Origin: an uncultured Sutterella sp.
GTDB lineage: Bacteria > Pseudomonadota > Gammaproteobacteria > Burkholderiales > Burkholderiaceae_F
Direction: 5' to 3'
Length of the DNA stretch: 53,762 nt
NCBI GenBank assembly: GCA_949287305.1
Contig: CASEFX010000004.1
Location: forward strand, 1 to 53,762
The first letter of the stretch is position 1; every line of letters starts with the position of its first letter. Of this stretch, positions 6,936 to 38,278 are shown in pieces. Below the pieces are notes generated by a model. The model worked only from the letters and a program-made list of their open reading frames with translations. It was not told where the DNA came from and did no database searches. Made by a program: the position numbers and the translations under genes.

Positions 6936-6942
6936 CTCTTAC

Positions 6943-6970: not shown

Positions 6971-6985
6971 CCGGCGGAATAACAA

Positions 6986-7021
6986 GGGCCTTTCTCCCAG
7001 TGCGAAGAAAGGCCCACTTTT
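6986..7021 (+). terminator. Convergent terminator between Fe-S protein and pbpG
   Basis: GGGCCTTTCT (6986-6995) pairs perfectly with AGAAAGGCCC (7006-7015), followed on the plus strand by ACTTTTTA. It lies between convergent genes and may serve both, though the T-run is better on the plus strand. Confidence 0.75.
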
Positions 7022-7046
7022 TATCCTTTTTGGTAAACGCCCGCGA

Positions 7047-8123: not shown

Positions 8124-8242
8124 GAAAGAGACCGAGGACGTTGGGTGGCTGAAAGGTTGTTCATTGTAAGCGGGAGAGGGAGGGGTGTCTCCCCTCCCCT
8201 TCCCGCGAAAACACAAATGTTAACAAAATCAGAGAAACGTTC

Positions 8243-11200
8243 TCATCCGCGGGCGATGGTCGCCCAGATGCGCTCGAGACGCTTCACGCTCACGGGCATG
8301 GGCGTGCGAAGCTGCTGCGCATAAAGAGACACGCGAAGCTCCTCCAAAAGCCAGCGGAAGTCCGTGAGCTGCGGATCGGGCACGCCCCGCCGCGCGGCGA
8401 GCGCCCTCAGATAGGGAACGCGCAAGGCGGTGAGCGCCGCCTGGCGTTCGGCATCACGCTTCGGGTCGTCCCGATAGCGGTCCAGACGATAGTGAATGGC
8501 CTTCAAGTAGCGCGGATAGTGCATGAGCTGCGAGAGCGGCGCCGCGAGCAGGAAGTCGGGCGGAAAGAGCGCGTCGAGCTGCTCTTCGACGTCGCGCACG
8601 AGTTCGGGCGCGTCGGTAAAGCGGCGAAGTTTCATCGGAAGCGAGGTCGCCTCCGTCACGATCGTCGTGAGAAGACGCGCCACTTCGCCCGCGACGAGCG
8701 TCAGACGTCCGCGGACGTCTTCCTTTCTCGCCTTGAAGCTTTCTTCGTCGGTCGGGAGCGGATCCACGAGAGCTGTCGCTTCAAGCACCGCGTCGACGAC
8801 GCCGCGCGAGAGCGTGTCGGTGCTCTCGAAGAGTCGGCTGAGGCCCGGCACCACGGCCGCCTGCATGGAGACGCGTCCGAGATCCTTCAGGGACCGCTCC
8901 ACATACTTCACCTGCTCGCGAAGCACCAACCGGAAGAGCTTGCGAAGCCCCTTTCGGTGCGTGCGAGCGGCTTCGACGGGATCGTCGAAGACTTCGATCG
9001 AGCAGACGTTTCCTTGGTCGACCAAGGCCGGGTGTCCGATCAGAGTCTGGCCGCGACGCGAAATTTCCATGAGCTCGGGCAATTCTCCGAAGGTCCAGTC
9101 GGTGACGCCTTCGGCGAGGTCCTTCGCGACGGATTCGTCCGCCTGCGCGACCGACTGGAAGGCGTCCTGCGCGAGGCCGCCCAATTCCGCGCGGAGCTGT
9201 GCGAGGCTTCGTCCCATCTCGAGCGTGCGGCCGTGTTCGTCGACCACGCGGAAATTCATGATGAGGTGCGGCGGCAACTGCTCCGTCTTGAAGTCGGACG
9301 CCGTGCAGGGGACCGAAAGCGTCTCGCGGATGTCTTCGGCGAGGACCGTGAGGAACCCGCGGTCGGTACGCTGCCCTTCGCCGCAGCGTGCGTAGAAGGC
9401 CTTCGCGTACTCGGCGATCGGCACGCAGTGGCGGCGGATCTTCTGCGGAAGGCTCTTGAGAAGCGCCTGCGCCTTTTCCTTCACCATTCCGGGGACGAGC
9501 CACTCGCAGCGCACCGGATCGATCTGATTGAGCGCATAGACGGGCACGGTGAGCGTGATCCCGTCGCGGGGGCTGCCCGGCTCAAAGTGATAGGTGAGCG
9601 CCATCGTGACCCCCGCCATTTCGAGGGTCTTCGGGTAGTACTGCTGCGTCGCGTTCGTCGCGTCGTGACGCATGAGCTCTTCCTTGCTGAGGTAGAGCAG
9701 ACGAGGATCCTTCTTTTCCGCTTCCTTACGCCAGGCTTCAAAGGAGATCGTTCCGCAGACGTCGGCGGGGAGCTTTTCGTCGTAGAAGGCGAAGATCTGC
9801 TCGTCGTCGACCAGGACGTCGGGGCGGCGGGTCTTGTGCTCAAGTTCGCGGATTTCGCGAACGAGCCGCAGATTGTGCGAGAGGAAAGAACCGCGCGTTT
9901 CGATTTCACCGGGAACGAGACCTTCGCGGATGAAGACTTCGCGCGCCGCGACGGCGTCGTAGCGCGAATAGAGAACCGGACGGTCCTTGTAGAGCGTCAG
10001 ACCGTAGAGCGTGCCGCGCTCGGAGGCGACCACTTCGCCACGGCGCTTTTCCCAACGGGGATCCCCCGCATGTCGGCGAACGAGGTCGCCCGCCGCCGCT
10101 TCGATCCACTCGGGCTCGACGTCGGCGAGCGTCCGTGCAAAGAGGCGCGAGGTTTCCACGATTTCGCCCGCAAAGATCCAGCGCCCCGACTTCTTGGCGC
10201 GAACCGACCCGGGCCAGAGCCAGAACTTGATCCCGCGCGCACCGAGATAGGGCGGCGCCTTGTAGTCGCTTTCCGCGGACTTCGAGCCGATGTTCCCCAA
10301 AAGCCCCGAGAGCAGCGCGCGGTGCACTTCTTCATAGGTCGCGGGCGCGGTGTTCTTTCGCCAGCCGAGTTCCTCGACGATCGTGTCGAGCTGGTTGTAG
10401 ACGTCTCGCCACTCGCGCATGCGGCGCGCCGACAAAAAGCGGCGGTGGAGTTCCGCATCGAACTTGCGGTTGCTTTCCTTTTCGGCCTTCGCCTTTTCGT
10501 ACCAGCGCCAGAGCTTCACAAAGCTCAGGAAGTCCGAACGTTCGTCGGCCAATTCCTTATGCGCGCGGTCGGCCGCCTCCTGCTGATCGAGCGGGCGCTC
10601 GCGCGGATCCTGCACCGAGAGACCCGAGCAGATGATGAGGAGTTCCGAGAGACTGCCGAATTCACTGCCGGCCAAAAGCATGCGCGCGAGCTTCGGGTCG
10701 ACGGGGAGACGCGAGAGTTCGCGACCGATCTTCGTCAATTCCCCTTCGGGCGTGAGCGCACGGAGTTCCTGCAGAATCGAAATGCCGTCCGCGATCGCGC
10801 GCGGAGGCGGGGCCTGCAGGAACGGGAACTCGCGGATGTCGCCGAGCTTCAATGCCTTGGCGCGCAGGATGACGGCGGCGAGGTTCGTACGGAAGATTTC
10901 CGGATCCGTAAAGGCGGGACGCCGCGCGAAGTCCTCTTCGTCGTAGAGACGAATGCAGATGCCTTCCGCGACGCGGCCGCATCGGCCCGCGCGCTGATTG
11001 GCCGCGGCTTGGCTGACGGGTTCAATCAGGAGCTGATCGACCTTGCTGCGGTACGAGTAGCGCTTCACGCGCGCGAGCCCCGTGTCGACCACGTAGCGGA
11101 TGCCGGGAACCGTAATCGAGGTTTCGGCGACGTTCGTCGCGAGTACGATGCGGCGAAGCCCCGCGGGCTTGAAGACCTTTTCCTGGTCCGCAGCGGAGAG

Positions 11201-18345: not shown

Positions 18346-19866
18346 ATGAAAGTCATCGTTCAGGCCGGCGGACTAGGAACTCGCATGCAGACCATGACCG
18401 CTTCCAAGCCGAAGGCGCTCATTGACGTTCAAAACAAACCAATCCTTTTTCATCTTTTTGACACCTTTCCGCTCGCGGATTTCATTGTCGTCGGCGACTA
18501 CCAATACGACGTTCTCGATCGCTACCTAACCACTTTCGCTCAAGATCGCCGATGCATTCTCGTGAAAGCTCGCGGGAAAGGAAACGCCGCCGGACTTTCC
18601 GAAGCGATTTCCTACGTGGGTGACAACGAACCTTTTGTCATCGTTTGGTCCGACCTCATTCTTCCCAAAGAGTTTCAGCTTCCGGACATCTTCGAAGGCT
18701 GCCTCGTGGGAACAGTTTCTTTCCCTTGTTCCTGGAGTTTTTCAAATGGCGGGCTTCACAAGGAAGCATCCGATCAACACGGCGTGGCGGGTTTTTACGT
18801 CTTCTCCGACAAGACGCTCTGCGAGTCCTTGCCGAGCGAAGGATCATTCACCACATGGCTCTCGAAACAGAGTTTTCCCATGGCTGAAATGCCTCTGACC
18901 GGTTGCCGCGACGTCGGAACGCTCGAAGCCTATCTGCGGCTGGAAAATTCAAAATACCGTTGCCGTCCCTACAACCGAATTGAAGTACTTGAAGATTCTG
19001 TCGTCAAGACCGGTCTCACGCAGGAAGCGAAAGACTTCATTGCCCGCGAAGTCGATTGGTACAAGAAAGTGCGTTCCTACGGCTTTGACGACGTTCCCCG
19101 TCTCCTGAACGAGAGCCCCCTAAAACTTGAGCGAATTCACGGACAAAATCTTTTCCTTTGCTCCCTCAACGCAGACGGAAAGAAAGCCGCGCTTCGCCGC
19201 ATGACGGACGCTCTCGCCCGGCTGCACTCCTATGACGTTCGTCCCGCCGACAGCTCGGACCTCTACCGAGAATACTTTGAAAAAACGCTTGTCCGCCTTC
19301 GTATGGTGGCCGATGCAGTGCCTTTCGGTCACGACCGAACCATCCGCATCAACGGAAAGGACCGCCTCAACGTTCTCACGAACGTTGAAGTATTCCGCCG
19401 CGCGGTGCTCAACAACCTGATGCGTACCCACTACACGCTCTTTCACGGGGACTGTCAACTCACGAACACCCTTGTCAATGAGGAAGGACGAGTCTTTTTC
19501 ATCGATCCCCGCGGTTACTTTGGAAAGAGCAAGGTCTTCGGAGACCCCCGCTACGACTGGGCCAAAGTGTTCTACGCCATTTACGGCAATTTTGATCAGT
19601 TCAACGTGAAGAACTTCCATTTTCACCAGACCGAAGACGGCGTGGAGTTTCAGATCGGATCGGGCGGATGGGAATTCCTCACCGAAGAACTCTTTCAACG
19701 CATCCCTGCGGGCGAAGGCACGCGAAAGGAAATCGAGCTCATCCACGCGGTTGTTTGGATGTCCATGGCGTCTCATGTATGGGAGGACTACGACTCCATG
19801 TGCGTCGCCTTCATGAACGGCACCGAACTTTTCAATCGTTGGCTGGAGGATTGGCATGCCGCGTGA
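18346..19866 (+). CDS. Bifunctional nucleotidyltransferase/APH-like sugar kinase
   Basis: A 506-aa fusion. Residues 1 to about 235 form a sugar-nucleotidyltransferase of the LicC/RmlA type, with VQAGGLGTRM, the SKPKAL lysine and a VWSDLI metal-binding Asp. Residues about 240-506 resemble choline/aminoglycoside kinases, with Brenner motif HGDCQLTNT at about 367 and metal-binding DPRGYFG at about 387. Such fusions phosphorylate a sugar or polyol and then activate it as an NDP (often CDP) derivative for capsule or LOS. First gene of the island; the following HAD gene overlaps its end by 11 nt. The substrate is not readable from sequence; the neighbours point to a ketose or pentulose phosphate. 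Confidence 0.8.
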   Translation: MKVIVQAGGLGTRMQTMTASKPKALIDVQNKPILFHLFDTFPLADFIVVGDYQYDVLDRYLTTFAQDRRCILVKARGKGNAAGLSEAISYVGDNEPFVIVWSDLILPKEFQLPDIFEGCLVGTVSFPCSWSFSNGGLHKEASDQHGVAGFYVFSDKTLCESLPSEGSFTTWLSKQSFPMAEMPLTGCRDVGTLEAYLRLENSKYRCRPYNRIEVLEDSVVKTGLTQEAKDFIAREVDWYKKVRSYGFDDVPRLLNESPLKLERIHGQNLFLCSLNADGKKAALRRMTDALARLHSYDVRPADSSDLYREYFEKTLVRLRMVADAVPFGHDRTIRINGKDRLNVLTNVEVFRRAVLNNLMRTHYTLFHGDCQLTNTLVNEEGRVFFIDPRGYFGKSKVFGDPRYDWAKVFYAIYGNFDQFNVKNFHFHQTEDGVEFQIGSGGWEFLTEELFQRIPAGEGTRKEIELIHAVVWMSMASHVWEDYDSMCVAFMNGTELFNRWLEDWHAA

Positions 19867-20233
19867 ACTTCGTCTTTCGCCCCTGAAGCACACCTGGGTC
19901 CTCGATTTTGACGGAACGCTCGTCAAACACAACGGCTACAAGACGGGAAACGACGAATGGCTGCCCGGTGCGGTTGAGTTTCTCAAAAAGATCCCGCAGG
20001 GAGACCTAGTCATCCTCCTCACCGCACGCGAGGAGGCCGCCCGCGAACGCACTCTCGAATTCATCCGGAGCGCCGGCGTCCGTATCGATCACGTGTTCTT
20101 CGAAGTTCCAATGGGAGAACGAATCCTGATCAACGACACCAAACCCTCGGGCTTGGTCTGCGCACACGCCGTCAATCCTTCACGCAATCAAGGGCTCGAA
20201 AACCTAAAGATCGTCGTCGACGAAACCCTCTGA
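19856..20233 (+). CDS. Small HAD-family phosphatase
   Basis: A 125-aa capless HAD phosphatase. Motif I is DFDGTL with both aspartates (about residues 17-19), motif II is the Thr of LLTAR, and a late INDTKPSG segment fits motif IV. Size and layout resemble HAD enzymes found in capsule clusters next to nucleotidyltransferases. The ATG follows a GGAGG 7 nt away and overlaps the preceding gene by 11 nt, so translation is probably coupled. It could remove the phosphate from a sugar phosphate before the kinase/nucleotidyltransferase acts. The exact substrate is unknown. Confidence 0.8.
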   Translation: MPRELRLSPLKHTWVLDFDGTLVKHNGYKTGNDEWLPGAVEFLKKIPQGDLVILLTAREEAARERTLEFIRSAGVRIDHVFFEVPMGERILINDTKPSGLVCAHAVNPSRNQGLENLKIVVDETL

Positions 20234-20241
20234 GGAAAATC

Positions 20242-21144
20242 ATGCAAATTCTCCAACCCATCGTTCATGAGACCGTCTGGGGCGGCGCCAAACTTGCTGC
20301 TCTTGTGGAAACGGACTGCCGCAAGATCGGACACCTTTACGGCGTCATCGATACGCCGAAAATGCGCTCAAAGTTTCTAACGGGTCCCTACCAAGGAAGA
20401 ACCATTCACGATTGGTTCCTCGACAATCGCAATCGCTACGGGCTCGGACACTTCGAAGAGCTTCCCATTTTGACGGCGCTCGTCGAAGCGGCAGACAACC
20501 TGTCCATTCAGGTGCATCCGGACGACAAGGCCGCGCGTGAACTTGAAGGCAAGGCGTTCGGCAAGAACGAGTCGTTCTATATGCTCGAGCCGCCAACAAC
20601 CGGACGCATGTTCAACGGCGTCAACGTTGAGACGACCGACGAATTCCGCCGCTTGATCGAAGAGAACAAGACGCTCGACGGTGTCGGCACCGTCGGGGTT
20701 CGCGCCGGCGACTACGTCTACGTTACCGGCGGTACGCTTCACGCGGCTGCCGCGGGCTCGCTTTCGTTCGAGATCGAAGAGAACTGCGATTCGACCTACC
20801 GTTTCTACGATTTCGATCGCCTCGACAAGAACGGCAACAAGCGTCCGCTTCAGGTCGAAAAAGCGCTGGCCTCGCTCAATCCGAAGCTCAAGTCCGAGGT
20901 TTCCACTCTTGAGCCCAACAGTCCCAAGCGCGAACGCATGTACGAACTGACGCTCGTCAAGGACAAGGAAACGTATGCCTGCGAGGGCGAAATGTTCGCC
21001 TTCATCGTTCTCTTGAACGGCGAAACCGAAATTGACGGTTTCCCCATCAAAGCGGGTACGTCCGTTCTGATAGAACCCGGCGACGTCATCACAGTGAAAA
21101 ACTGCACTGCGATGGTAGCCAAACCCGTTCCGTACGCATTCTGA
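20242..21144 (+). CDS. manA: Mannose-6-phosphate isomerase-like protein (class I, ManA type)
   Basis: A 300-aa cupin isomerase starting 8 nt after the HAD gene, with GAGGAA before the ATG. Zn-site motifs are visible: LSIQVHPDD (His and Asp) and FGKNESFYMLE (Glu). The late metal-site histidine is in TGGTLHAAAAG, followed by SFEIEENCDSTYRFYDF. These fit phosphomannose isomerases of the short bacterial form. It interconverts mannose 6-phosphate and fructose 6-phosphate. Its place in this operon suggests a dedicated biosynthetic role, or activity on a related ketose phosphate. Symbol given on family grounds only. Confidence 0.85.
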   Translation: MQILQPIVHETVWGGAKLAALVETDCRKIGHLYGVIDTPKMRSKFLTGPYQGRTIHDWFLDNRNRYGLGHFEELPILTALVEAADNLSIQVHPDDKAARELEGKAFGKNESFYMLEPPTTGRMFNGVNVETTDEFRRLIEENKTLDGVGTVGVRAGDYVYVTGGTLHAAAAGSLSFEIEENCDSTYRFYDFDRLDKNGNKRPLQVEKALASLNPKLKSEVSTLEPNSPKRERMYELTLVKDKETYACEGEMFAFIVLLNGETEIDGFPIKAGTSVLIEPGDVITVKNCTAMVAKPVPYAF

Positions 21145-21156
21145 GGGGCTCGAACG

Positions 21157-21831
21157 ATGAATCTGTCGCCTTCACTGATGTGTGCGGATCCCGGTCATTT
21201 CGCGGAAGAAATCGCATTCCTCGAAGCCGCAGGCGCCGACAGCTTTCACATAGACATCATGGACGGAGAATTCGTGTCGAACTTTGCCCTTTCATGGGCG
21301 GAGGTCGCCAAGTTCTCCACCATGACATCGCTTCCTCTTGAAGCGCATCTGATGGTTCGCAATCTTTCCGTACACATCGGATTTGCCGCTTCGAGCGGCG
21401 TAAAGCTCGTGTACCTGCACGCGGAACATCCTGATGTTCTTCGCGGTCTAAAACGCGCCCATATGTTGGGTTTGCAAGCGGGACTTGCGGTCAATCCAGA
21501 GACGGACATCGACACTCTCCGGCCTTTCGTCGACATGGTGGACTCCATTCTCATGATGCGCGTTCGCCCGGGGTTTGCCGGGCAGAGCGCAGTGTCGGAT
21601 GTTGATGGACGTTTGCCTCTTCTTCGCTCGCTCTTTCCGAACACGCCGATCACCGTGGACGGAGCCGTAACACCGGACACCGTTGCGTCTATGAATCGGA
21701 TGGGGGCCTCAGGTTTTGTGCTGGGAACCTCCGCATTGTTCGGAAAGGGAAAAAGCTACAGGGAGATTTTTAGAGATCTTCGTTGCTTAAAAAATCCGAT
21801 AAATCAAAAGAAGCTTAACGCATGTGAATAA
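21157..21831 (+). CDS. Ribulose-phosphate 3-epimerase family protein
   Basis: A 224-aa TIM-barrel epimerase. Motifs LSPSLMCAD, FHIDIMDGEFV, LEAHLMV and TVDGAV supply the metal-binding His/Asp set and the two catalytic aspartates. The phosphate loop reads MRVRPGFAGQ where canonical RPE has MSVNPGFGGQ. With the ManA-like neighbour, it could be a ribulose-5-phosphate epimerase or a hexulose-phosphate (allulose-type) epimerase. The last about 20 codons become AT-rich as the island shifts composition. Start after GAGGGG. Confidence 0.85.
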   Translation: MNLSPSLMCADPGHFAEEIAFLEAAGADSFHIDIMDGEFVSNFALSWAEVAKFSTMTSLPLEAHLMVRNLSVHIGFAASSGVKLVYLHAEHPDVLRGLKRAHMLGLQAGLAVNPETDIDTLRPFVDMVDSILMMRVRPGFAGQSAVSDVDGRLPLLRSLFPNTPITVDGAVTPDTVASMNRMGASGFVLGTSALFGKGKSYREIFRDLRCLKNPINQKKLNACE

Positions 21832-21846
21832 TGGTGTTGCTCAGGC

Positions 21847-23010
21847 ATGAAAAAGTTTCTGTCGTATATTTTCAATACAAGAAAATATAAAAAAGATAAC
21901 GATCTTATTTTCGAAAGAAGATTTGTTTTTGGTATCTTTAAAACTCAAAAACGACTCGCTGGGTTTAAATTAAAACTGGCGGGCATACCTATATTTACAT
22001 GTAAGGACAGAGAATTTCGGGTCGTTAAGTTGTTGGGAATTCCTGTCTATGCGAAAAATAGACGTTTCGGGTTTGAGAAATATTTTCTAGAACAAATCAT
22101 CAAGAAATCGCAAGAAGTTTATGGTGAAAACATTGTTGCAGACGATGTTTTTGTCATTCGACACAATATTGGCGAGACCATACTCTACCTCTGTAAATTG
22201 TTGGAATGGGCTAAAAGAGAAAACTCAAAAAGACCATTATTCCTTGTTTGGAGAGAAAGGGATATTCCGTTATTTAGATTGTTTTTAGGGAAGGAACCTA
22301 GGGTTGTTTTTGTAGAGATTCCGCAAAGCGATATAAATTGTTTTCTTAAACAAGATTTGCTCTTGGAAAATGTACGCATTCACGCGCCAACATTTCAAAT
22401 TGCTGAAGCAATGAAGGCAGAATATACATCGAATAAAAATGTTAATTTTGCCGACTATATTTTGCAAAGCATGAACCTTGAAGATTGGACGGCTCGAAAA
22501 AGTCCCATACCAACGTCCAAGGCGAAAAGTGAAGCAGATTCGATTTTACGAAAATTTGGCATCAAAAAGTCTTATGTTTTGCTTTGTCCGGAAGCAGTTA
22601 GCATTAAATCTTTGCCTGATGAGTTTTGGCTCAAGATTGCGAAATCCTTAGTTTTCGCGGGTTATGATGTAATTATTAATTCATATTACGAAGCAAAAGA
22701 TAACTCTAAATTTTTAGACTATCATCTGTGTTGTCCGGATATTGATATTCTTTATGCCTTGGCATCTAGGTCGGATAGAGTCATTTCTATGGCAAGTGGC
22801 CTTGGTGTACTGCTTTCCATTTGTGACGTTCCCGTTGATTTAATTTATACGGATGTGAAAAATAAACATATAGGCTATTCTGCTGAATTTTGTAGGCAAA
22901 TATACTCAGTTCACAGTATGCCGTGGGTTACCGCTAAAGATGTTGTTGAACATGTAGCCAGCGACAATTACGACGATTTGGCAAAGAAAGTCTTGACTAG
23001 AAATATTTGA
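21847..23010 (+). CDS. Glycosyltransferase-like protein, possibly GT9 (heptosyltransferase) fold
   Basis: A 387-aa protein encoded by strikingly AT-rich DNA. The N-terminal about 75 residues are basic, with two repeats of a hydrophobic LxGIPxF/VY pattern, perhaps a membrane-docking region. The remainder looks like a GT-B enzyme: a nucleotide-sugar-like half with YVLLCPEAVSIKSLPDEFW, a segment resembling the ADP-heptose:LPS transferase pattern, then ISMASGLGVLLSICDVPVDLIY. No charged catalytic motif can be fixed with certainty. The next start codon lies 5 nt beyond the stop. Alien composition suggests recent transfer. It may act in LOS or glycan assembly; donor unknown. Confidence 0.6.
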   Translation: MKKFLSYIFNTRKYKKDNDLIFERRFVFGIFKTQKRLAGFKLKLAGIPIFTCKDREFRVVKLLGIPVYAKNRRFGFEKYFLEQIIKKSQEVYGENIVADDVFVIRHNIGETILYLCKLLEWAKRENSKRPLFLVWRERDIPLFRLFLGKEPRVVFVEIPQSDINCFLKQDLLLENVRIHAPTFQIAEAMKAEYTSNKNVNFADYILQSMNLEDWTARKSPIPTSKAKSEADSILRKFGIKKSYVLLCPEAVSIKSLPDEFWLKIAKSLVFAGYDVIINSYYEAKDNSKFLDYHLCCPDIDILYALASRSDRVISMASGLGVLLSICDVPVDLIYTDVKNKHIGYSAEFCRQIYSVHSMPWVTAKDVVEHVASDNYDDLAKKVLTRNI

Positions 23011-23015
23011 GTGTT

Positions 23016-24161
23016 ATGTTTTTTAAAAAAGTAAAGATTCGATTTACCGACGGTTCGGTCACGAAAAGATTCTATTTGTTTGGTCGTGCTGTTCTTGATG
23101 TGGCGAAAAAGAAAGATGGGGCATTGTCAATTAGAACACCAAAAACTTGGAAGCCAAAATCTAAAGATCAGCCCATCTTTTATTTGAAGGTCAACAGGGT
23201 TCATCAAACAAGCTACGATTGCATGCAGCATTGGATGGATATTGCAAACAAAATGGGGGCGTTTTGCTATATTGTTTGTGATAAAAAAGAATTTGAGTAT
23301 GGAATGTTTGATAAGCCATGCTATTTCTACCGAAATTCTTTTCAACTAATCCCTAGTGATCGCCGTTCCTTAAAAGAAGTGGTTCAGAAACTATTGTCAG
23401 GCGTGGAAAGAAGCAAACTGTGGCGACGGATTGCTCTTTCTATGCTGACCCCGTTCGTGCACGCGGAAAAAAACAAGTATTCTCGCACTTATAACATTGA
23501 TGCTGACGACATCATGATTCTGGCGCGTCCTGACAAAATTGCAAAGGCTTTGCTTCGTATGGAGCAGATTGCGGAGGATAAAAAAGTTGACGCGATGAAT
23601 TTGGATATGTTCGTCTCCAAATCATTTAATGTGCATTGGTCATTTGGAGTCGTTTATATGAGACGCCCAGATCGTTGCATTGCAGCATTGAAGGAAAATG
23701 TCGACTGGAGGAAAGATGAGGAAAATCATAAGAAGTTTATGACTTCTTATGTTTCAGAGTTTAATTTTAATGTTGATTGGCTATTCACATTTCTTCGAGA
23801 CTGTAAAAAGCTAAATTTGCAAACGTTTTGTATCAAAAACGCTGCCGTGATACATATGCCGGACATTGCCATTTCTCGGCACTGGGCATTTGTCTTTCAG
23901 TGGCAAGATGATAGGTTGTACTTTCCAATTATTTCTGAAGTGTATCAGGATAAGAAATGGGCAAACGTACCGATTCCAAAAAGTGTGAATAAAATTGATG
24001 TAGGGTTAGAGCTTAATGAATATTCAAATTTCATGCGATCCTTTTATTGGACCGATTATTGGTTTGAGAATTCAATGTTAAACATAGCGAAGAACAGACG
24101 CTTGATTGATTCCTCGATTTACAATAAATATCTATCGGTTCCGGAAAAAAGATGGGAATGA
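23016..24161 (+). CDS. Putative glycosyltransferase, family not recognised
   Basis: A 381-aa AT-rich gene (from ATG 23016; TTG 23007 in frame is possible). The protein has no signal peptide or TM helix. A candidate GT-A-type DxD lies in YNIDADDIMIL at about residue 160. Later features are a central Trp-rich VHWSFGVVYM segment and a MPDIAISRHWAFVFQW stretch. The DxD plus the setting between a GT-like gene and exporters suggest a glycosyltransferase, but I do not recognise the family. It overlaps the following ABC gene by an ATGA if that starts at 24158. Confidence 0.5.
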   Translation: MFFKKVKIRFTDGSVTKRFYLFGRAVLDVAKKKDGALSIRTPKTWKPKSKDQPIFYLKVNRVHQTSYDCMQHWMDIANKMGAFCYIVCDKKEFEYGMFDKPCYFYRNSFQLIPSDRRSLKEVVQKLLSGVERSKLWRRIALSMLTPFVHAEKNKYSRTYNIDADDIMILARPDKIAKALLRMEQIAEDKKVDAMNLDMFVSKSFNVHWSFGVVYMRRPDRCIAALKENVDWRKDEENHKKFMTSYVSEFNFNVDWLFTFLRDCKKLNLQTFCIKNAAVIHMPDIAISRHWAFVFQWQDDRLYFPIISEVYQDKKWANVPIPKSVNKIDVGLELNEYSNFMRSFYWTDYWFENSMLNIAKNRRLIDSSIYNKYLSVPEKRWE

Positions 24162-25897
24162 TTGACGTCGATAAAAGTAAATTCAAAACCCTTTTTCGAT
24201 TGTTTTCACACCTTAGGCTGTATAGGAAAAATCTATTTCTTGCGATCTTGTTTATGGTCTTGTCTGCCGGAGCTTCCTCCGGCGTTGCTCTCTTGTTGGG
24301 AAAGTTGACGGACGCAGGTTTTTATGAGCAGGATCCAAGCATAGTTTTGACGGCACCTCTTTTTCTAGTCGTAATAGCAGGCATGAACGGATTAGGCATG
24401 TTGATGAGCAATTATTGTCTAGGGAAGATCAGTCAATCGGTGATGATGACCCTGCGTCGAGAACTCTTCTCGAAGATTCTGCATTGGCCTTCTGCCGCCT
24501 ATCAGAACTATCCCACGGGACTGATTGCGTCAAAGTTCATCAACGAAGCGAACTTCGCTCTTTCGAGTGCGGCAAAGTCGGCCATCATCCTCGTTAGGGA
24601 CTCCGTGCAGACCGTCGCGCTCTGCGTCATCTTGGTTTGGCACAACTGGCTTTTGGCCATTGTGGCGCTCTGCCTTGCTCCCGTTGTCGTCAAACTTCTG
24701 CGCTGGATATCGCAGAAAATCAAGTCGGTGATGTTTTCGAGTCAGCAGAATGTCGCCACGCTCATCATGCGCGTGAAGGAGACTTATGAGGCGGAGCGCC
24801 TCATCAAGATTTCCGGGTCGTATGACGCCGAGAAGAAGCGCTTCCGTGATGTCAACGAACAAATTGCCGATCTAGCCATCCGTATCAACAAGATCTCTTC
24901 GATCGGGACGCCCGCAACGCAGCTGATCGGAATGACGGGCGTGGCGATCGTGCTCGCTGTTGCGCTCTGGCAGACGCAGCAGGGCATGATCACGCTCGGC
25001 GAGTTCGTGACGTTCCTTGCCGCGATGCTCCTCGTTCTGCAACCCCTCAAGCGTCTCGCGGGTGTCAATACCGCCATCGTCGGAATGTCGGTCGCCGCCG
25101 AAAGCATCTTTCAGACGCTCGACGAACCGCTCGAGTCGGATACCGGAATCGTCGAACTTCAGAACGTCCGGGGCGCCGTCTCGTTCGAGCACGTTTCACT
25201 TCGCTACCCTAACGCGGACCGCGACGCCGTGAGCGACTTCACCCTCGACGTGAAGCCCGGCGAAAGCATTGCGCTGGTCGGCCTTTCCGGATCCGGGAAG
25301 ACTTCGGTCGTCAACATGCTCCCGCGCTTCTGGAATCCTACGTCCGGTCGCATCCTCATCGACGGCACAGATACGAAGGACGTCACGCTCTCATCGCTAC
25401 GCAGTCAGATCGCAATCGTCTCGCAGGACGTCGTGCTCTTTGACGGGACCATCCGAGAGAACATCGCGTACGCCGTGCCGGACGTCTCCGAAGAGGCGCT
25501 TGCAGAAGCTGTTGAAGCGGCATCCCTCAAGGATTTCATCGCTTCGCTTCCTCAGGGACTCGACACGCCCGTGGGCGAGGCGGGAAGCCGTCTCTCGGGA
25601 GGGCAGAAGCAGCGCATTTCCATTGCGCGGGCCCTTCTGCGCAACACCCCGATCCTGATCCTCGACGAAGCCACAAGCGCTCTCGACAGCGAATCGGAAG
25701 CGGCCGTCAAGGCTGCGCTCGACCGCCTGATGGCGGGCCGAACGACTTTCATCGTCGCGCACCGACTTTCCACGATCCGCAACGCTTCGCGCATTGTCGT
25801 GATGAGCGAAGGCGTCATCCAAGAAATCGGCACGCACGAAACCTTGCTGGAAAAGGGCGGCGCCTACGCCAGTCTCTCAAAACTTCAGTCGCTTTGA
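24158..25897 (+). CDS. MsbA-type ABC exporter (first of tandem pair)
   Basis: A 579-aa half-transporter: six-TM N-terminal domain (about 1-310) and C-terminal ATPase with Walker A VGLSGSGKTS (about 375), signature LSGGQKQR, Walker B ILILDE and H-loop VAHRLST. It matches the lipid A/glycolipid flippase family. All catalytic residues are intact. ATG 24158 overlaps the previous stop as ATGA; ATG 24152 is also possible. The first about 300 bp are AT-rich like the upstream glycosyltransferase genes, then the DNA becomes GC-rich within the gene. It may export the glycan or glycolipid made by the island, as a homodimer or with the second copy. Confidence 0.85.
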   Translation: MIDVDKSKFKTLFRLFSHLRLYRKNLFLAILFMVLSAGASSGVALLLGKLTDAGFYEQDPSIVLTAPLFLVVIAGMNGLGMLMSNYCLGKISQSVMMTLRRELFSKILHWPSAAYQNYPTGLIASKFINEANFALSSAAKSAIILVRDSVQTVALCVILVWHNWLLAIVALCLAPVVVKLLRWISQKIKSVMFSSQQNVATLIMRVKETYEAERLIKISGSYDAEKKRFRDVNEQIADLAIRINKISSIGTPATQLIGMTGVAIVLAVALWQTQQGMITLGEFVTFLAAMLLVLQPLKRLAGVNTAIVGMSVAAESIFQTLDEPLESDTGIVELQNVRGAVSFEHVSLRYPNADRDAVSDFTLDVKPGESIALVGLSGSGKTSVVNMLPRFWNPTSGRILIDGTDTKDVTLSSLRSQIAIVSQDVVLFDGTIRENIAYAVPDVSEEALAEAVEAASLKDFIASLPQGLDTPVGEAGSRLSGGQKQRISIARALLRNTPILILDEATSALDSESEAAVKAALDRLMAGRTTFIVAHRLSTIRNASRIVVMSEGVIQEIGTHETLLEKGGAYASLSKLQSL

Positions 25898-25909
25898 CGG
25901 TCGACCGTC
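25896..25909. repeat. 14-bp perfect palindrome between the two ABC genes
   Basis: GACGGTCGACCGTC overlaps the stop codon of the first exporter gene and precedes the AAGGAG of the second. It has no T-run. It could be a small mRNA hairpin tuning the expression of the second gene, or a chance palindrome. Confidence 0.35.
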
Positions 25910-25925
25910 AACAAGGAGTTCTCCG

Positions 25926-27692
25926 TTGAACCGACTCATCAAACACTTGGATCCGGACCTGCTTCGGATCTACAGCTATTTGCTTCCGCACAAGTGGCGC
26001 ATTGCTCTCGGCGCCGTCTTCATGGCGGGGGCCGCAAGCATGTCGTCGCTTACGGCGACGCTTTTGGGGAAACTCACCGATCTGGGTTTCTATCAGAAGG
26101 AGCCGTGGGTGATCGCGGCCGCTCCGGCCGCTCTGATCGGCGTAACGATCCTTTTTGGCTTTTGCTCCGTGGCCTCGTCCTGGATCATGGCAAAGGTGAG
26201 CCAGGCCGTACTCATTACGCTTCGTACCGAACTGTACGATCGAATCATGACGTGGCCTGCAGAGCGGTATCAGCACAACCCGACGGGTGCAATCTGCTCG
26301 AAGTTCGTCAATGAAGCGAACGTCGCGCTCTCGGGCGCGACGAGTTCTCTGATCGTGTTGATCCGCGATTCGCTGCAAATCGTGGGACTTCTTTGTCTCC
26401 TATTCTGGCAGAACTGGAAGCTCACGCTTGTTGCCTTCGTGGTGGGTCCCCTCATCGTCATCACACTCAAGATGATCGCCAAGCGCATCCGAGTCATCGT
26501 CAAAAAGAGTCAGGAAAGCTTCGGAGTCATGCTTTCACGCGTTCAGGAGGCCTACGAAGCGCAGCGGCTCGTGAAGGTGACGGGAAGCTACGCCTTTGAA
26601 GAGGCGCGTTTTGATGCGGTCAACAAGATCATTCGCCGCACGGCGCTCGACCGCATCAAGATGCAGAGTCTCGCCACCCCCATCACGCAGATGATCACGA
26701 TGCTCGGCATCGCCTTTGTGGTGGGCGTGGCGCTGTACGAAGCGCAAGCGGGGCTTCTCACCATCGGCGAATTCATCACGTTTCTCACTGCGCTGTTGCT
26801 CCTAAAACCCGCTCTGCAGCATCTAACCGGTCTCAACGGCACCTTCGCGAGCATCGCAACGGCTGCGCGCAGTCTTTTTGAAGTGCTCGACGCCGAACGC
26901 GAAATCGACAACGGCACGGTGGAACTCGATCGGGCCAAAGGAGAAATCGTTTTTGAAGACGTCTCTCTCATGTATCCCGGTCTCAATGAACCGAGTCTTC
27001 GGGACATTCGCCTGACTATTCGTCCCGGCGAACACGTCGCGCTTGTCGGCCCCTCCGGGTCCGGAAAGACTTCGCTCGTCAACCTGGTGCCCCGTTTCTG
27101 GGAGCCTACGCACGGGGAGATTCGTTTGGACGGTGTGCCGCTCAAAGACCTCAGGTTTGAGAGCCTGCGCCGTCAGATCGCCGTCGTTTCGCAGGAAATT
27201 TTCCTCTTTGACGACACGATTCGGGCCAACATCGCCTACGGACTGCCGCACGCCACGGAAGAAGAGATCCTTCGCGCCGTAAAAGCCGCGGCTCTCGACG
27301 ATTTCGTGTCGACGCTTCCCGAAGGACTGAGTACCCGGGTGGGTGAAGGCGGTTGTCTGCTTTCCGGGGGGCAAAAACAACGGATATCCATTGCCCGAGC
27401 GATTCTGAAGAACGCTCCCATCCTCATTCTCGACGAACCGACCAGCGCTCTGGACAGTCAGAACGAAGCGGTCGTCAAAAGGGCCTTGGACAAAGTCGCC
27501 GATGGTCGTACGTGCCTCATCGTGGCGCACCGCTTCTCAACCATCGACAAGGTCGACCGAATCATCGTCATGGAAAAGGGCCGCATCGTGGAAGAAGGAG
27601 AACAAAAGGAGCTCCTGGCCCGTGGCGGTCTCTACGCAAAACTGCACCGTCTGCAACAAAACGAAGGCGCTACCGTCAAAGGAGAAGAGTGA
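25926..27692 (+). CDS. MsbA-type ABC exporter (second of tandem pair)
   Basis: A 588-aa paralogue of the gene before it, clearly alignable over the whole length (shared LLGKLTDxGFY and NPTG-x-SKF-NEAN-ALS regions). Walker A is VGPSGSGKTS, signature LSGGQKQR, Walker B ILILDE with intact D-loop, H-loop VAHRFST. The TTG start at 25926 is supported by AAGGAG 7 nt upstream; no nearby ATG fits. The use of TTG may lower output relative to the first copy. GC-rich throughout, unlike the 5' end of its partner. Probably acts on a lipid-linked glycan, LPS precursor or similar; the pair could be homodimers or a heterodimer. Confidence 0.85.
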   Translation: MNRLIKHLDPDLLRIYSYLLPHKWRIALGAVFMAGAASMSSLTATLLGKLTDLGFYQKEPWVIAAAPAALIGVTILFGFCSVASSWIMAKVSQAVLITLRTELYDRIMTWPAERYQHNPTGAICSKFVNEANVALSGATSSLIVLIRDSLQIVGLLCLLFWQNWKLTLVAFVVGPLIVITLKMIAKRIRVIVKKSQESFGVMLSRVQEAYEAQRLVKVTGSYAFEEARFDAVNKIIRRTALDRIKMQSLATPITQMITMLGIAFVVGVALYEAQAGLLTIGEFITFLTALLLLKPALQHLTGLNGTFASIATAARSLFEVLDAEREIDNGTVELDRAKGEIVFEDVSLMYPGLNEPSLRDIRLTIRPGEHVALVGPSGSGKTSLVNLVPRFWEPTHGEIRLDGVPLKDLRFESLRRQIAVVSQEIFLFDDTIRANIAYGLPHATEEEILRAVKAAALDDFVSTLPEGLSTRVGEGGCLLSGGQKQRISIARAILKNAPILILDEPTSALDSQNEAVVKRALDKVADGRTCLIVAHRFSTIDKVDRIIVMEKGRIVEEGEQKELLARGGLYAKLHRLQQNEGATVKGEE

Positions 27693-33988: not shown

Positions 33989-36922
33989 TCAGGGATTTTC
34001 GAGCTGCCACGCATCCTTCTTGAACATCGTCCCTTCGACGCGGTAGGTGTAGCACTTCATGCTTTCCTGGCGAAGGTTCGAGTCGCTGCAGGAGTCGTAG
34101 TAGCGAAGACGCTTGTCGCCACCTTCGAGCGAACGGTATTTCTCGGGCAACTCGCGAATGCCGCGAAGAAGGAGGTCGGGAACGTCGCCGTTCGTCATGA
34201 GGTCGTTGGCCGTGCGAAGTTCGCCCTTGGCACCGAAGTCCTTCCAGAGAAGAAGCGGATAGCGGATTCCGGGATTGTCGACGTTTTCGTCGATGCGTCC
34301 CTTGTAGGGGACGTGCCCGATCGCATCAAAGAGCACCTTGCTGTCGCGGCCGCCGTGGTCGGCCGTCACCACGATGCGGGTGTTGTCGTAGACGCCGTTC
34401 TTTCGCATCCAGTCGAGCCACGAGGCGAGCTTCACCGTGAAGGCGCGCTCGGACAGGTAGTGGCTGTAGTTGTAGTCGGGATGAGCCTTGCGGAAATCCG
34501 CGGGCGTTCTCGGCTGCGAGAGCGCGGGCTGCATGTCTTCGCCGCAGTAGCGGCCCGTGTGCGAGCCGTCGGAATAGACGTATCGGTAGTAGTTCCCGGT
34601 TTCCACCGTGCGGCTGAAGTCCTCGGGCGCGCGGAAGGCGGCGAAGGCCTTGAAGCCGTCGAGCGTTTCCTTGGACGACGCGAGCCAGCGGCCGTTCGCG
34701 TAGATCGTCTTGCGAAGGCTGTAGGGAGCCGCCTTGAAGAGCGAAATCGAGAAGAGACGTCCGAAGGCGTCGACACGATCGCGTCCGCGGGCGTTTTCAA
34801 ACTCGGCCTTGTAGTAATAGTTGAACCAGTCGTCCATCAGGGGATGGTAGGCCACCGAGAGATAGTTCTTCGGGGCTTCGGGCAACTGCCACATCGTCCC
34901 GATCACGGCGCTGTTCCAGTCCTTGCCGAGAAGATCGGGAATGAGCGAATAGCTCTCGGCATAGAGCTGCTCGAAGGTCTTCCCATCGTTCTCGCGATTG
35001 ATGCTGCGAACCGAGAAGCGGTTGCCGCCCGCCGTGACGGCAAGCGCATGGAGCGTGCCGCTCCCCGCACTCGTCGTGTCGACAAAGTGCGTGAAGCCCT
35101 CAAAAGACTTCTTGAGTTCGGGGTGTTCCTTGAGAATCTGCGGGAAGTGGTCCGCCGTGTACATGTCAAAGACAATCACGAGAAGATTCTGTCCCGTCTT
35201 GCTGAAGACGTAGGAATCCTTCGCGTAGGACGGCGCTTCGGCCGTTTCCGTCGCCACCTGCGTCGTGCGGGCTCCGACCGTTTTGGCAAGCGGCAGAAGC
35301 ATCGCGCCCGAGAGAATGAAGACGAGCGTCGTCAAGAGCGCCGAGAAGTCGCGCACGGTCTTGACGGGGACTTTCTTCACGATGAAGAAACTGAGCACCG
35401 CAACGTCCGCCACCACCGCGATGTCCTTCCAACGGTTAGCGCTTTCATAGAGCGTCTGCGTCTTTTCGAGTTCACCCCCGTTGATGAGACCGTAGTCGCC
35501 GACGAACAAGAAGGCGTAGCCCACGACCAAGAGATTCGCAAAGAGGAGGAGGAAGAAGAACGCCAGCGACGCCCCGCGAGGAAGGTCGCGAAGATAGGCG
35601 TAAGTGAGCGCCCACCCCGCGACGGCCAACAACATGAAGCAGGGGATCACGACGTCAAAGGTGGTCGCGACCGAATCCGGGTCGGAGGACAAAATGAGCG
35701 TCGGAAGACCGAGGAAGAGGACCGTGACGAGAAGAACGGCCAACCCCGTGTTGACGCCCGAGAGATCTTCACGAACGAAGCGCGAAAGCTTCGCGAAGCC
35801 TCCTTCGAGAAGAAGCGTCCAGAGGGCGCAAACGAGCGCCGCAAGACCGACGCCCACCGTCGTCCAGGCCAGAAGCGGCGGTTCCTTCGGAATGAGCACC
35901 CACTCCGCCATTGTGCCGCGGCAAAAAAGCGTCACGACCCAGGGAAGAACGAAGGCGAGGAGCGTCAGCCCCTTCGCGGTCGCGCGGGCGCTGCCCGCGC
36001 GTTCGCGGGAGGGAACGCTCAAGAGGGCCGCGGCCATAAGGGCGCAACCCATCGAAAGAAGCACGAGGAAAATTTCCAGACGGAAGGCCGGAATCGTCTC
36101 GCGAAGCGAGATGTAGTTCCAGGTGTCGGCCGTAATCGCCGTGTCGGCCGCGATGAGGAGCGCACCGAGAATCCCGAGGGCCCAGCGGCGCTTTTCGGCA
36201 AAGACCTTGAGGCCCGCGAAGGGGTCGGCGTGCTTTGTGGCGCGCCAGCGCGGCAGTAGGCTCTTCTCAACGATGTTCTTGCCAAGCGAATAAACGTTGT
36301 TGAGCGTCCAGTAGAAGGTGAGCGCCGCGGGCGAAGCGTAGAGGAGCACCAGGAAGAGCGCCGAGAGCCCGTAGAGCTGAATCTTGTCCTGCTTCGTGAG
36401 GCGCGCCGTGTAGACGAAGGCCGAGAGAAGGTTCACGGCCGTCATGATGAGCGGGAGCGCATTGATGTGCCAGTCCCCGATCGCGATCAGGCCGTCCGCG
36501 GCGCCGAGGTCGGCGATCGGGCCGAAGGCGACGCCCTTCAAGGCCGTCATGTTCGAGAGCAGGTGATAGGCCGCGATGAAGAAGGGAATCTGCAGGAAGA
36601 ATCCGAGCGAGGAACGAAGCGCGAGCTTCGAGGAATACCCCGCCTGCCGACGCATCGTGGTGAGCATTGCGAAGCGCTCCTGCCCCTTGAAGGTGCGCTT
36701 GATCATGGCTTCGGTCGCTTCGAAGCTCTTTTTGACGGCGCGCTCCTCTTCCTGCCAACTTTCGGCCTTGTTGTAGATCGGCAGAATCACCGTGTTGACG
36801 ACGAGACTCATGAGGACGATCGACCAGCCGTAGGAAGCGAAGAGCCCGTATCCCCAGTCGAGCACCGTCGTCATGAAGAGTTCGAGCGGCGCAATGAAGA
36901 AGGTGTAGAGAACGGTCAGCAT
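33989..36922 (-). CDS. YidC/Oxa1-like domain fused to LtaS-like alkaline-phosphatase-superfamily domain
   Basis: A 977-aa multi-pass membrane protein. Residues about 1-225 align with the YidC/Oxa1 core: YGWSIVLMSLVVNTVILPI lines up with E. coli WGFSIIIITFIVRGIMYPL. FLQIPFFIAAYHLLS, ADLGAAD and LTFYWTLNNVYSLGKN follow in YidC order. The groove Arg essential in many insertases is Asn43 here. About 245-560 hold roughly eight to ten more TM helices. The C-terminal about 390 residues are a periplasmic alkaline-phosphatase-superfamily domain like LtaS/OpgB: VFDMYTADHF (metal Asp), TSAGSGTLHAL (candidate nucleophile Thr/Ser) and VVTADHGGRD (metal Asp-His). Such domains move phosphoglycerol or related groups outside the membrane. 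It follows the TagF-like gene by 3 nt with AAAGGAGG before the ATG. Confidence 0.8.
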   Translation of the reverse strand: MLTVLYTFFIAPLELFMTTVLDWGYGLFASYGWSIVLMSLVVNTVILPIYNKAESWQEEERAVKKSFEATEAMIKRTFKGQERFAMLTTMRRQAGYSSKLALRSSLGFFLQIPFFIAAYHLLSNMTALKGVAFGPIADLGAADGLIAIGDWHINALPLIMTAVNLLSAFVYTARLTKQDKIQLYGLSALFLVLLYASPAALTFYWTLNNVYSLGKNIVEKSLLPRWRATKHADPFAGLKVFAEKRRWALGILGALLIAADTAITADTWNYISLRETIPAFRLEIFLVLLSMGCALMAAALLSVPSRERAGSARATAKGLTLLAFVLPWVVTLFCRGTMAEWVLIPKEPPLLAWTTVGVGLAALVCALWTLLLEGGFAKLSRFVREDLSGVNTGLAVLLVTVLFLGLPTLILSSDPDSVATTFDVVIPCFMLLAVAGWALTYAYLRDLPRGASLAFFFLLLFANLLVVGYAFLFVGDYGLINGGELEKTQTLYESANRWKDIAVVADVAVLSFFIVKKVPVKTVRDFSALLTTLVFILSGAMLLPLAKTVGARTTQVATETAEAPSYAKDSYVFSKTGQNLLVIVFDMYTADHFPQILKEHPELKKSFEGFTHFVDTTSAGSGTLHALAVTAGGNRFSVRSINRENDGKTFEQLYAESYSLIPDLLGKDWNSAVIGTMWQLPEAPKNYLSVAYHPLMDDWFNYYYKAEFENARGRDRVDAFGRLFSISLFKAAPYSLRKTIYANGRWLASSKETLDGFKAFAAFRAPEDFSRTVETGNYYRYVYSDGSHTGRYCGEDMQPALSQPRTPADFRKAHPDYNYSHYLSERAFTVKLASWLDWMRKNGVYDNTRIVVTADHGGRDSKVLFDAIGHVPYKGRIDENVDNPGIRYPLLLWKDFGAKGELRTANDLMTNGDVPDLLLRGIRELPEKYRSLEGGDKRLRYYDSCSDSNLRQESMKCYTYRVEGTMFKKDAWQLENP

Positions 36923-36925
36923 GCC

Positions 36926-38278
36926 TTATTCCTCCTTTCCGGAGACGCGGGAGGCGGCATGCGCCGCCTGAGATTCGGGAGCGCTCACTTCGGCAAGAAG
37001 CGAGAGAAGCGCTTGGGCGATGGGAACGCCTGCGGCACCGAAATTCTTGATGCCCGCTTCACGTACGCGGCGGATGCGCTCGATTCGGGCGTCGCCTTCC
37101 CGGAGGAGCGCCTCGACCGCTTCCGCGGCCCTCTCCTCTTCTCCGGCGGCAAGGTGCATGCCGATTTCATCCAAAACGCCCATTTCCCAGGCGGGGTTCG
37201 GCAGATCCCAGGCTTCGTAGCCGTCCTTTTGCCAACCGTCGCCGATGCTCACGACCGGACGCTCAAAAACAAAGGCGAAGTCAAAGACGACGCCCGAGAA
37301 GTCGGAGACCATGACGCCCGCGCGCGAGAGCGATGAAAAGCCGTTGGGATTGCGGTCCCATTCGATGTTCTCAAAGGAAGCCAATTCCTTTTGCAGGCTT
37401 TCCATCAGCGGCAGTTCCGAGACAAAACTCTGCGGGTGCGGTCGCAGAATCACGTGGTAGCCCGCCTGCGCCAAACGCTTCGGAATGGCGGCGCCCGTCT
37501 TCGTCAACAGCCCCGCACGCCCCCAGGTGGGAGCGATCAGCACGGTCTTCGGATCCGGCACGACGGTGCCTTCCTTCTTTTGCGCGGCCATGCGGTCGAA
37601 ATAGGCGCAGCCCACGATGCGGAGGTCCTTGGGTTCCGTGTGACGCTTGGCCTCCAAGGTACGAAGCGACGAAACCTGATGCGGGCCCGAGCAGAAGACC
37701 GCATCGTAGTAGTCAAAGCTGTAGAGCTTGTAGCCGTGAATGTCGGTCGCGGCGTGCACGAGGTGGACGTAGCGCTTGACGCCCTTCGAGCGGCGAATCT
37801 GCAAAACGTCGATTCCCGGCGTCGTCAGTACGAAGAGGTCCGCCTCCAGAAAGCCGAGCGACGTGTAGGCGGCGTTGCCTTTGCCGATATAGTGCGCGTC
37901 GACGTGCGAAAAACCCGCCGAAAAGACCGGATCCTTTTCGTCCGACGTGAAGTAGGTCACGCGTTCCCCCGACGAAGCCAGAGCCCGCAAGACCGGCTCG
38001 AAGGTTCCCCAATAGGCGGCCGATTCCGCATAGATCACGATGCGTTTGCCGGACAATTCCTTTCCTTCGCCCCGCATCCGGAAGACGAACTGCCGAATGA
38101 GGGTGGGAAGACGTCGGATGAAGAAGTAGCCCGACGAGGCAAGGCCCACGACGATCGAAAGGAGCATGCTCCCCGTGCCCGGGTCGAGATAGGCCCGGGC
38201 TTCGAGCGGCGCCGCGACGAGTCCGACCAAAAGCCAGAGGTTTGCAGCGAGTGTGGAGGCGGGTGTTCGCAAATGCAT
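36926..38278 (-). CDS. TagB/TagF-like CDP-polyol phosphotransferase (CDP-glycerol glycerophosphotransferase family)
   Basis: A 450-aa protein. An N-terminal hydrophobic helix (about 10-29) is followed by YLDPGTGSM and a second helix (about 37-56), anchoring it to the membrane. The motif DPGTGS is common at the start of envelope-polymer proteins. The rest is a GT-B fold of the family that transfers glycerol- or ribitol-phosphate from CDP donors. Visible pieces are IYAESAAYWGTFEP, IAPTWGRAG, VILRPHPQ (catalytic-type His) and VMVSDFSGVVFDFAFV. It is co-translated with the downstream YidC-LtaS-like gene, so the two most likely build or decorate one polymer. No gene for the CDP donor is adjacent. 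No Shine-Dalgarno is obvious before the ATG. Confidence 0.8.
   Translation of the reverse strand: MHLRTPASTLAANLWLLVGLVAAPLEARAYLDPGTGSMLLSIVVGLASSGYFFIRRLPTLIRQFVFRMRGEGKELSGKRIVIYAESAAYWGTFEPVLRALASSGERVTYFTSDEKDPVFSAGFSHVDAHYIGKGNAAYTSLGFLEADLFVLTTPGIDVLQIRRSKGVKRYVHLVHAATDIHGYKLYSFDYYDAVFCSGPHQVSSLRTLEAKRHTEPKDLRIVGCAYFDRMAAQKKEGTVVPDPKTVLIAPTWGRAGLLTKTGAAIPKRLAQAGYHVILRPHPQSFVSELPLMESLQKELASFENIEWDRNPNGFSSLSRAGVMVSDFSGVVFDFAFVFERPVVSIGDGWQKDGYEAWDLPNPAWEMGVLDEIGMHLAAGEEERAAEAVEALLREGDARIERIRRVREAGIKNFGAAGVPIAQALLSLLAEVSAPESQAAHAASRVSGKEE

Follow-up and report, generated by a model that had tools for sequence, protein, structure and literature searches.

On the minus strand of the 53,762-nucleotide stretch analysed here (the window; contig CASEFX010000004.1 of an uncultured Sutterella sp.), two genes encode a putative envelope phosphotransferase system. 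The first specifies a TagF-like phosph(on)otransferase of 450 amino acids linked to cytidine di- or monophosphate (CDP/CMP) donors and predicted to be membrane-anchored (36926..38278; Pfam, GT-B model and an invariant histidine pair). After a gap of 3 nucleotides it is followed by the gene of a 977-residue fusion of a YidC-like part and an LtaS/EptA-type part (YidC::LtaS; 33989..36922; Pfam, PDB profiles and AlphaFold2 fold). An initial annotation had recognized this pair and its spacing and had suggested that the two proteins jointly make or decorate an alditol-phosphate product at the cell envelope. The pair, its parts and their joint action hold up. The alditol phosphate is not supported, and the genes linked to the pair indicate 2-aminoethylphosphonate (AEP) or phosphoethanolamine instead, so that this interpretation was probably wrong in the donor and right in the general class.

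The TagF-like protein matches PF04464 above the gathering score (25.3 against 22.1 bits), and its predicted structure adopts a GT-B fold (pLDDT 82). His175 and His281 are invariant in a 15-row alignment. The catalytic histidines of TagF, His444 and His548 according to PDB titles, lie at offsets of 269 and 267 from them, which is consistent with the aligned ranges, the comparison being one of ranges and not of individually printed residue pairs. Because a profile search of the family against PDB sequences returned only spurious parathyroid-hormone matches, the similarity to TagF rests on Pfam and on the fold. In the fold ranking, UDP-GlcNAc 2-epimerases score slightly above TagF, which is not singled out. 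Residues 30–37 form a YLDPGTGS motif (38168..38191), and Ala27, Ala29 and Tyr30–Ser37 are invariant in the same alignment. As the motif directly follows an AxA signal-peptidase-like site, it is predicted to be the periplasmic N-terminus of the mature protein, in line with the membrane anchoring that had been proposed.

The YidC/Oxa1-like domain of the fusion occupies residues 1–225 (36248..36922). It matches PF02096 (E = 5e-18; 66 bits against a gathering score of 35) and the PDB profiles 3wo7/3wo6, the YidC match covering residues 31–218, and it scores 68.4 against the cut-off of 84.3 for the NCBIfam family TIGR03592 (yidC_oxa1_cterm). Lack of a YidC fold in residues 1–225, which would have spoken against a joint system, was thus not encountered. 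About nine predicted membrane helices (residues 236–560, 35243..36217, from DSSP of the AlphaFold2 model) link it to an alkaline-phosphatase-superfamily domain of the LtaS/YejM/EptA type (residues 576–977, 33992..35197). This domain has the fold of the superfamily, in agreement with the LtaS/OpgB-type assignment of the initial annotation. Its PF00884 score of 21 stays below the gathering score of 25 (P0001), and PF00884 is present in the precomputed annotation of six of 17 relatives. Asp586, His788, Asp855 and His856 are invariant in 14 aligned rows and Thr623 nearly so. Asp586, Asp855, His856 and Thr623 are presumably the metal ligands and threonine nucleophile of the superfamily, with catalytic roles and an equivalence to LtaS that we assume rather than derive from a superposition.

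A positively charged groove residue is described as strictly conserved across all YidC homologues (PMC8920935). At this position the fusion has Asn43 (codon 36794..36796, minus strand), and the general YidC that is also encoded in the same genome has lysine. The 71 rows initially collected comprised 35 Asn, 34 Lys and two Ser; eight of the Asn rows duplicated genes that were already in the table and were excluded. Lysine is present in all 26 canonical YidC proteins (own genome and 25 relatives) and in all eight of the split class described below. In the clade of fused-class YidC domains (those fused, or separate in loci L055 and L056), 27 of 29 non-redundant sequences have asparagine and two have serine, both of the latter from Treponema (L054). 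Since the positive charge can reportedly be dispensable as long as the groove stays hydrophilic (PMC8920935), loss of insertase function does not follow from these substitutions.

A genome scan with the family of the TagF-like protein (P0002) gave 57 loci, of which 12 with short-stretch matches (L077–L088) were dropped to leave 45 (L032–L076). A YidC-like gene lies in 32 of them and is fused to an LtaS-like domain in 21. The fused class is found in Sutterella, Parasutterella, Duodenibacillus, Mailhella, Desulfovibrio, Photobacterium, a metagenome-assembled Rhodospirillaceae genome and spirochaetes. The YidC-like gene of L032 is cut off by the contig end. In L055 a separate yidC-like gene stands beside tagF with two LtaS-like genes following, and in L056 it adjoins tagF and its anchor gene, with no LtaS-like gene found in the locus. 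Eight further loci with a separate yidC-like gene form the split class (L062, L063, L064, L068, L069, L072, L074 and L075), in which a TagF protein without the anchor is accompanied by a sulfatase and by a YidC with an N-terminal extension. The sulfatase next to tagF is of the DUF3413 type in the two loci scanned (L062 and L063). A separate small protein with the YLDPGTGS motif (frames of about 80–150 residues) adjoins tagF in split loci and was found by motif scan in seven of the eight, the frequency of the motif being biased because the search patterns of the genome scan include LDPGTGSM. Thus, where the parts are encoded separately, they are still neighbours, and the unlinked arrangement that would have spoken against a joint system was not encountered in L055, L056 or the split loci. 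No YidC-like gene was found in the other 13 of the 45 loci, several of which lie on contigs that end close to tagF. A phylum-wide survey detected the TagF family at E ≤ 1e-20 in two of 398 genomes, one of them that of the window, and is of little use for association. Small membrane proteins of the YLDPGTGS type, recognized by motif or BLAST match, also stand beside a protein of about 460 residues with weak methyltransferase matches in L082, L083, L087 and L060 (1158–2818), and a sulfatase-like gene then follows in L083 and L087.

The neighbours of the pair in these 45 loci point to a small phosphonate or phosphate as substrate. A small cytidylyltransferase is encoded in 15 loci, and eight (L033, L034, L037, L038, L041, L042, L045 and L047) contain a PhnS/T/U-type importer, in the order small cytidylyltransferase, binding protein, ATPase and permease, with the tagF/fusion pair adjoining. 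The six importer proteins scanned (three from L045, two from L047 and one from L041) have phnS2, PhnT2 or PhnU2 (putative AEP transporter) as their best NCBIfam match, and only phnS2 of L045, from Photobacterium, with 421 against 392.75, is above the cut-off. A PhnD-type importer, in which one protein combines a Phosphonate-bd domain with a permease, immediately precedes tagF in L058 and L059. Phosphonate synthesis is represented as well. As PF13714 is not specific for phosphoenolpyruvate (PEP) mutase (of 14 control genomes, 11 give a match and nine of these exceed the cut-off), only genes with the EDKxxxxxNS motif, a rule taken from PMC6697681, were counted; these occur in seven loci (L054, L062, L064, L070, L074, L075 and L076). 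The PEP mutase of L070 (427 against 319.55), the phosphonopyruvate decarboxylase of L054 (496 against 312.5) and the AEP aminotransferase of L062 (400 against 360.8) all pass their cut-offs. The gene preceding the second tagF of L054 (6152–7984) matches Treponema denticola Tde1415 (PDB entry 6pd1) over about 600 residues with 890 bits and is the true PntC-AEPT match. For Tde1415, activity on AEP and a structure with bound CMP-AEP are reported, and its activity on phosphocholine was too weak for kinetics (PMC6697681). A query from L063 (10430–12268) that had been labelled PntC proved to combine a nucleotidyltransferase with a threonine-phosphate-decarboxylase-like domain, and its matches in L043, L054 (1899–3740) and L056 were therefore not counted as phosphonate genes.

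Tandem copies of YidC::LtaS beside one or two tagF genes are seen in L040, L046 and L054. In L054 one tagF lies before the nucleotidyltransferase–decarboxylase gene and another after PntC-AEPT, as if the copies handled different head groups. A TagF relative is also present in a Pelagibacteraceae (SAR11-type) genome (L067, L158), which encodes a cytidylyltransferase–PEP mutase fusion beside phosphonopyruvate decarboxylase.

The association was followed in 34 genomes that contain selected loci; of the 45, nine were not submitted, and L033 and L034 fell under the search of relatives described below. The small cytidylyltransferase is found at 157 bits or more in 16 of these genomes, the next match scoring 67, and a motif-bearing PEP mutase in 13, as judged from the stretches read. 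Both are present in two genomes and at least one of them in 27. Of the seven that remain, three (G070, G083 and G090) encode the nucleotidyltransferase–decarboxylase fusion and one (G071) a choline-kinase fusion, and G085 and G094 have a nearby nucleotidyltransferase (the PF13714 genes of G094 were not checked for the motif). In G073 neither the cytidylyltransferase nor a motif-bearing PEP mutase nor a nucleotidyltransferase fusion was found. In Haliotispira (G080) a single frame of 929 codons combines phosphonopyruvate decarboxylase (400 bits, cut-off 312.5) with the small cytidylyltransferase, which scores 157 bits against the family profile, and with an AEP-aminotransferase-like segment, which at 81.5 bits stays under the cut-off of 360.8. 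A 526-residue metagenomic protein (P0145) combines a radical SAM domain (PF04055) with a PF01467 domain that is 48% identical to the cytidylyltransferase stretch of the Haliotispira protein.

If the pair works through import of AEP and its activation with cytidine triphosphate (CTP), its own genome should hold an importer and a cytidylyltransferase outside the window. Such genes are indeed adjacent on the minus strand of contig C34 (locus L126): LicD (9960–10814 of the locus), the cytidylyltransferase (9468–9947; C34:395467–395946), a PhnS-like binding protein with an SBP_bac_6 domain (PF13343; 8467–9426; C34:394466–395425), and PhnT-like (7435–8445) and PhnU-like (5876–7450) proteins. The best-scoring NCBIfam families of the three importer proteins are phnS2, PhnT2 and PhnU2. 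The cytidylyltransferase had earlier appeared, unrecognized, among four PF01467 matches in this genome. Directly after the PhnU-like gene, a 354-residue protein without a Pfam or NCBIfam match is encoded (4792–5856, minus strand). The same order from LicD to the PhnU-like gene is found in G001 (L164).

Co-occurrence of the cytidylyltransferase, TagF and the fusion was tested in 61 genomes, namely the own genome (G000) and 60 relatives. At 75% identity or more, the cytidylyltransferase is present in G000, G001, G011, G019 and G033, and the remaining 56 genomes lack it. Some match at E = 1e-3 is seen in 21 of the 61, the best below the 75% set having 33% identity (E = 7e-10). These five are also the genomes with a TagF of at least 60% identity, with a 37% match over a short stretch (E = 5e-4) in a sixth, G022. 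The YidC::LtaS fusion also occurs in these five, as single frames of 961–1009 codons. In G011 (contig C3, L163) there is a second YidC::LtaS copy, whose 3' end and the cytidylyltransferase gene are convergent.

We propose, with a probability of roughly 0.6, that the pair is the transfer-and-export half of a pathway that scavenges AEP, or its phosphate isostere phosphoethanolamine, and attaches it to the envelope. The genes, their linkage and their co-occurrence are those described above, and from this context AEP or phosphoethanolamine is the likely substrate. The steps from the TagF-like transfer onwards, including the acceptor, are modelled on the chemistry of the protein families. An ATP-binding cassette importer of the PhnSTU type would bring in the aminoalkyl phosph(on)ate, and the small cytidylyltransferase of the importer cluster, by its predicted activity, would make CMP-AEP (or CDP-ethanolamine). 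The N-terminally anchored TagF-like enzyme would transfer the head group to a membrane acceptor at the cytoplasmic face, the YidC-like part may pass this acceptor, once loaded, across the bilayer or along it, and the fused LtaS/EptA-like periplasmic domain would place the head group on its final acceptor in the envelope. Periplasmic-side lipids are the source of the head groups that LtaS and EptA/MCR-1 transfer. A lipid-loading TagF-like enzyme in the cytoplasm, an adjoining membrane groove and an outer LtaS-like domain would form a simple relay. LicD, encoded beside the cytidylyltransferase, might act as another transferase, also cytoplasmic, that uses the same donor. The more specific idea, that a YidC fold has been repurposed from protein insertion to moving a phosphonate-loaded lipid, carrying scavenged AEP from the TagF-like enzyme across the inner membrane onto the envelope, is tentative, and we would sooner bet against it than for it.

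Several observations weigh against the scavenging pathway. No PEP mutase exceeds the cut-off in the own genome (best PF13714 score 22 bits against 31.5), so the substrate must come from outside. The PhnS-, PhnT- and PhnU-like proteins of the candidate importer score 297, 332 and 390, below the cut-offs of 392.75, 457.7 and 593.25, and the binding protein has its best solved relatives in entries titled as components of iron transport (4r72 and 8x1a) and as a pyridoxal-5-phosphate binder (6wce). The closest solved relatives of the cytidylyltransferase are an ethanolamine-phosphate cytidylyltransferase (87 bits, in two matched stretches) and a glycerol-3-phosphate enzyme (70 bits), with only 52 bits to the phosphonate enzyme Fom1 (5x3d). 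The five co-occurring genomes correspond to about three lineages, so that the 61 genomes are not independent trials, and the Haliotispira gene fusion was seen only once, a database search returning itself and the one radical SAM fusion. In addition, L043, L054, L056 and L063 contain a nucleotidyltransferase fused to a threonine-phosphate-decarboxylase-like domain (150–179 bits against a cut-off of 290.55), and in L044 a nucleotidyltransferase is fused to a choline/ethanolamine kinase domain. These fusions make phosphate head groups plausible. What the loci would have in common is the nucleotide activation of a small aminoalkyl phosph(on)ate, with phosphoethanolamine as a live alternative.

Carried further, this would make the donor CDP-ethanolamine or CDP-choline rather than CMP-AEP, and the pair the new export step of a Lic-type pathway for phosphoethanolamine or phosphocholine decoration, its precursors imported or derived by decarboxylation. 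The 87-bit ethanolamine-phosphate relative, the decarboxylase-like and kinase fusions just mentioned and the LicD gene adjoining the cytidylyltransferase all fit such a donor. However, related loci encode a PntC-AEPT of characterized architecture as well as PEP mutase, AEP transaminase and phosphonopyruvate decarboxylase, to which Haliotispira has a member of this cytidylyltransferase family fused, and phnS2 passes its cut-off in Photobacterium. We regard this donor as unlikely.

A second alternative concerns the YidC-like part, which may be an ordinary insertase that places or holds the TagF/YLDPGTGS anchor, or inserts the fused enzyme itself, and moves no substrate. It has the fold of insertases, split loci pair a separate small YLDPGTGS membrane protein with a separate YidC, and the eight split-class YidC proteins keep the lysine. 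Asparagine need not abolish insertion either, as neighbouring residues can keep the groove hydrophilic (PMC8920935). On the other hand, a general YidC is already present in the same genome, its covalent linkage to an LtaS-like domain, found in 21 loci, suggests that it takes part in catalysis or in delivering the substrate, and lysine in all 26 canonical proteins contrasts with asparagine or serine in all 29 of the fused-class clade. A purely insertase role is doubtful on this balance.

A teichoic-acid-like route, in which imported glycerol-3-phosphate is converted to CDP-glycerol and polymerized by TagF and the LtaS-like domain extends or attaches the chain, agrees with PF04464, the LtaS-type fold and the glycerol-3-phosphate enzyme as second-best solved relative, but is improbable, since the cytidylyltransferase reaches only 71.8 of the 165.4 bits required by its best NCBIfam match, glycerol-3-phosphate cytidylyltransferase (TIGR01518, scanned with this one of the four PF01467 genes of the genome), and among the selection of locus genes scanned none passed a glycerol- or ribitol-specific cut-off while phosphonate genes passed theirs.

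Compared with known systems, the scavenging pathway is closest to Pnt phosphonyl tailoring (Rice et al. 2019; PMC6697681), with which it would share CTP activation of AEP and a proposed surface transfer and whose PntC-AEPT is matched over its length by the L054 gene. It differs in having an importer-like cluster in place of a PEP mutase over the cut-off and a cytidylyltransferase of the PF01467 type rather than LicC-like, and the words glycerophosphotransferase, insertase, transporter and uptake are absent from the main text of PMC6697681. The Lic phosphocholine pathway (LicA/C/D) likewise combines import, CTP activation and transfer to a surface glycan (PMC6697681). Its LicD has a counterpart next to the Sutterella cytidylyltransferase. 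We know of no TagF-like and YidC::LtaS pair in that pathway. LtaS/LtaP, YejM/PbgA and MCR-1 share the membrane helices and the alkaline-phosphatase-type domain, whereas in the fusion a complete YidC-like domain comes first, together with about nine additional helices. YidC/Oxa1/Alb3 insertases share PF02096 and the helix order, and differ from the fused domain with its Asn or Ser groove and its envelope-transferase locus. TagF/TarL wall teichoic acid polymerases share PF04464, the GT-B fold and probably the two invariant histidines; the window protein is set apart by its score of only 25 bits, its signal-peptide/YLDPGTGS anchor and its phosphonate gene context. The AEP importers AepXVW/AepSTU and PhnSTUV resemble the candidate importer in combining a binding protein with an ATPase and a permease, AepX and AepS carrying pfam13343 (PMC8316502) as does the Sutterella protein, which in contrast stays with its partners below the NCBIfam cut-offs and co-occurs with surface-transfer genes. 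Marine phosphonates have been proposed to reside on cell-surface glycoproteins, but Prochlorococcus and other producers have PepM, and in the text available of PMC8931226 the terms insertase, glycerophosph- and cytidylyl- are absent. Among the literature matches listed, no title or opening of an abstract gave an account of the TagF-like plus YidC::LtaS architecture.

Elsewhere in the window (18346–27692, plus strand) lies a surface-polysaccharide-like cluster that begins with a nucleotidyltransferase–APH-type kinase fusion. It also encodes phosphomannose-isomerase-like and ribulose-phosphate-3-epimerase-like proteins, two proteins that match nothing in Pfam, and a tandem pair of MsbA genes that each exceed the MsbA cut-off. 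The nucleotidyltransferase–kinase fusion (18346–19866; NTP_transf_3 and APH) was considered as donor-maker and rejected: matches over most of its length are found only in G000, G001, G029 and G003, so it does not track the pair, which is present in G000, G001, G011, G019 and G033. Three of the seven PF12804 matches of the own genome were scanned in NCBIfam; one is this fusion and the others are best matched by MobA and MurU, both just under the cut-off.

In 2019 the steps of phosphonate surface tailoring that follow C–P bond formation were called enigmatic, and the CTP-activation step was then supplied (PMC6697681). For the later steps, the TagF-like transferase and the YidC::LtaS protein can now be named as candidates, which recur with both phosphonate-making and phosphonate-importing genes. 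This suggests that scavenged phosphonate may be displayed even where a bacterium lacks PEP mutase. The module also lends itself to testing whether a YidC fold can serve a purpose other than protein insertion; if the fold does move a phosphonate-loaded lipid, there would be a complete route of import, activation, flipping and display for phosphonates in bacteria that are unable to make them.

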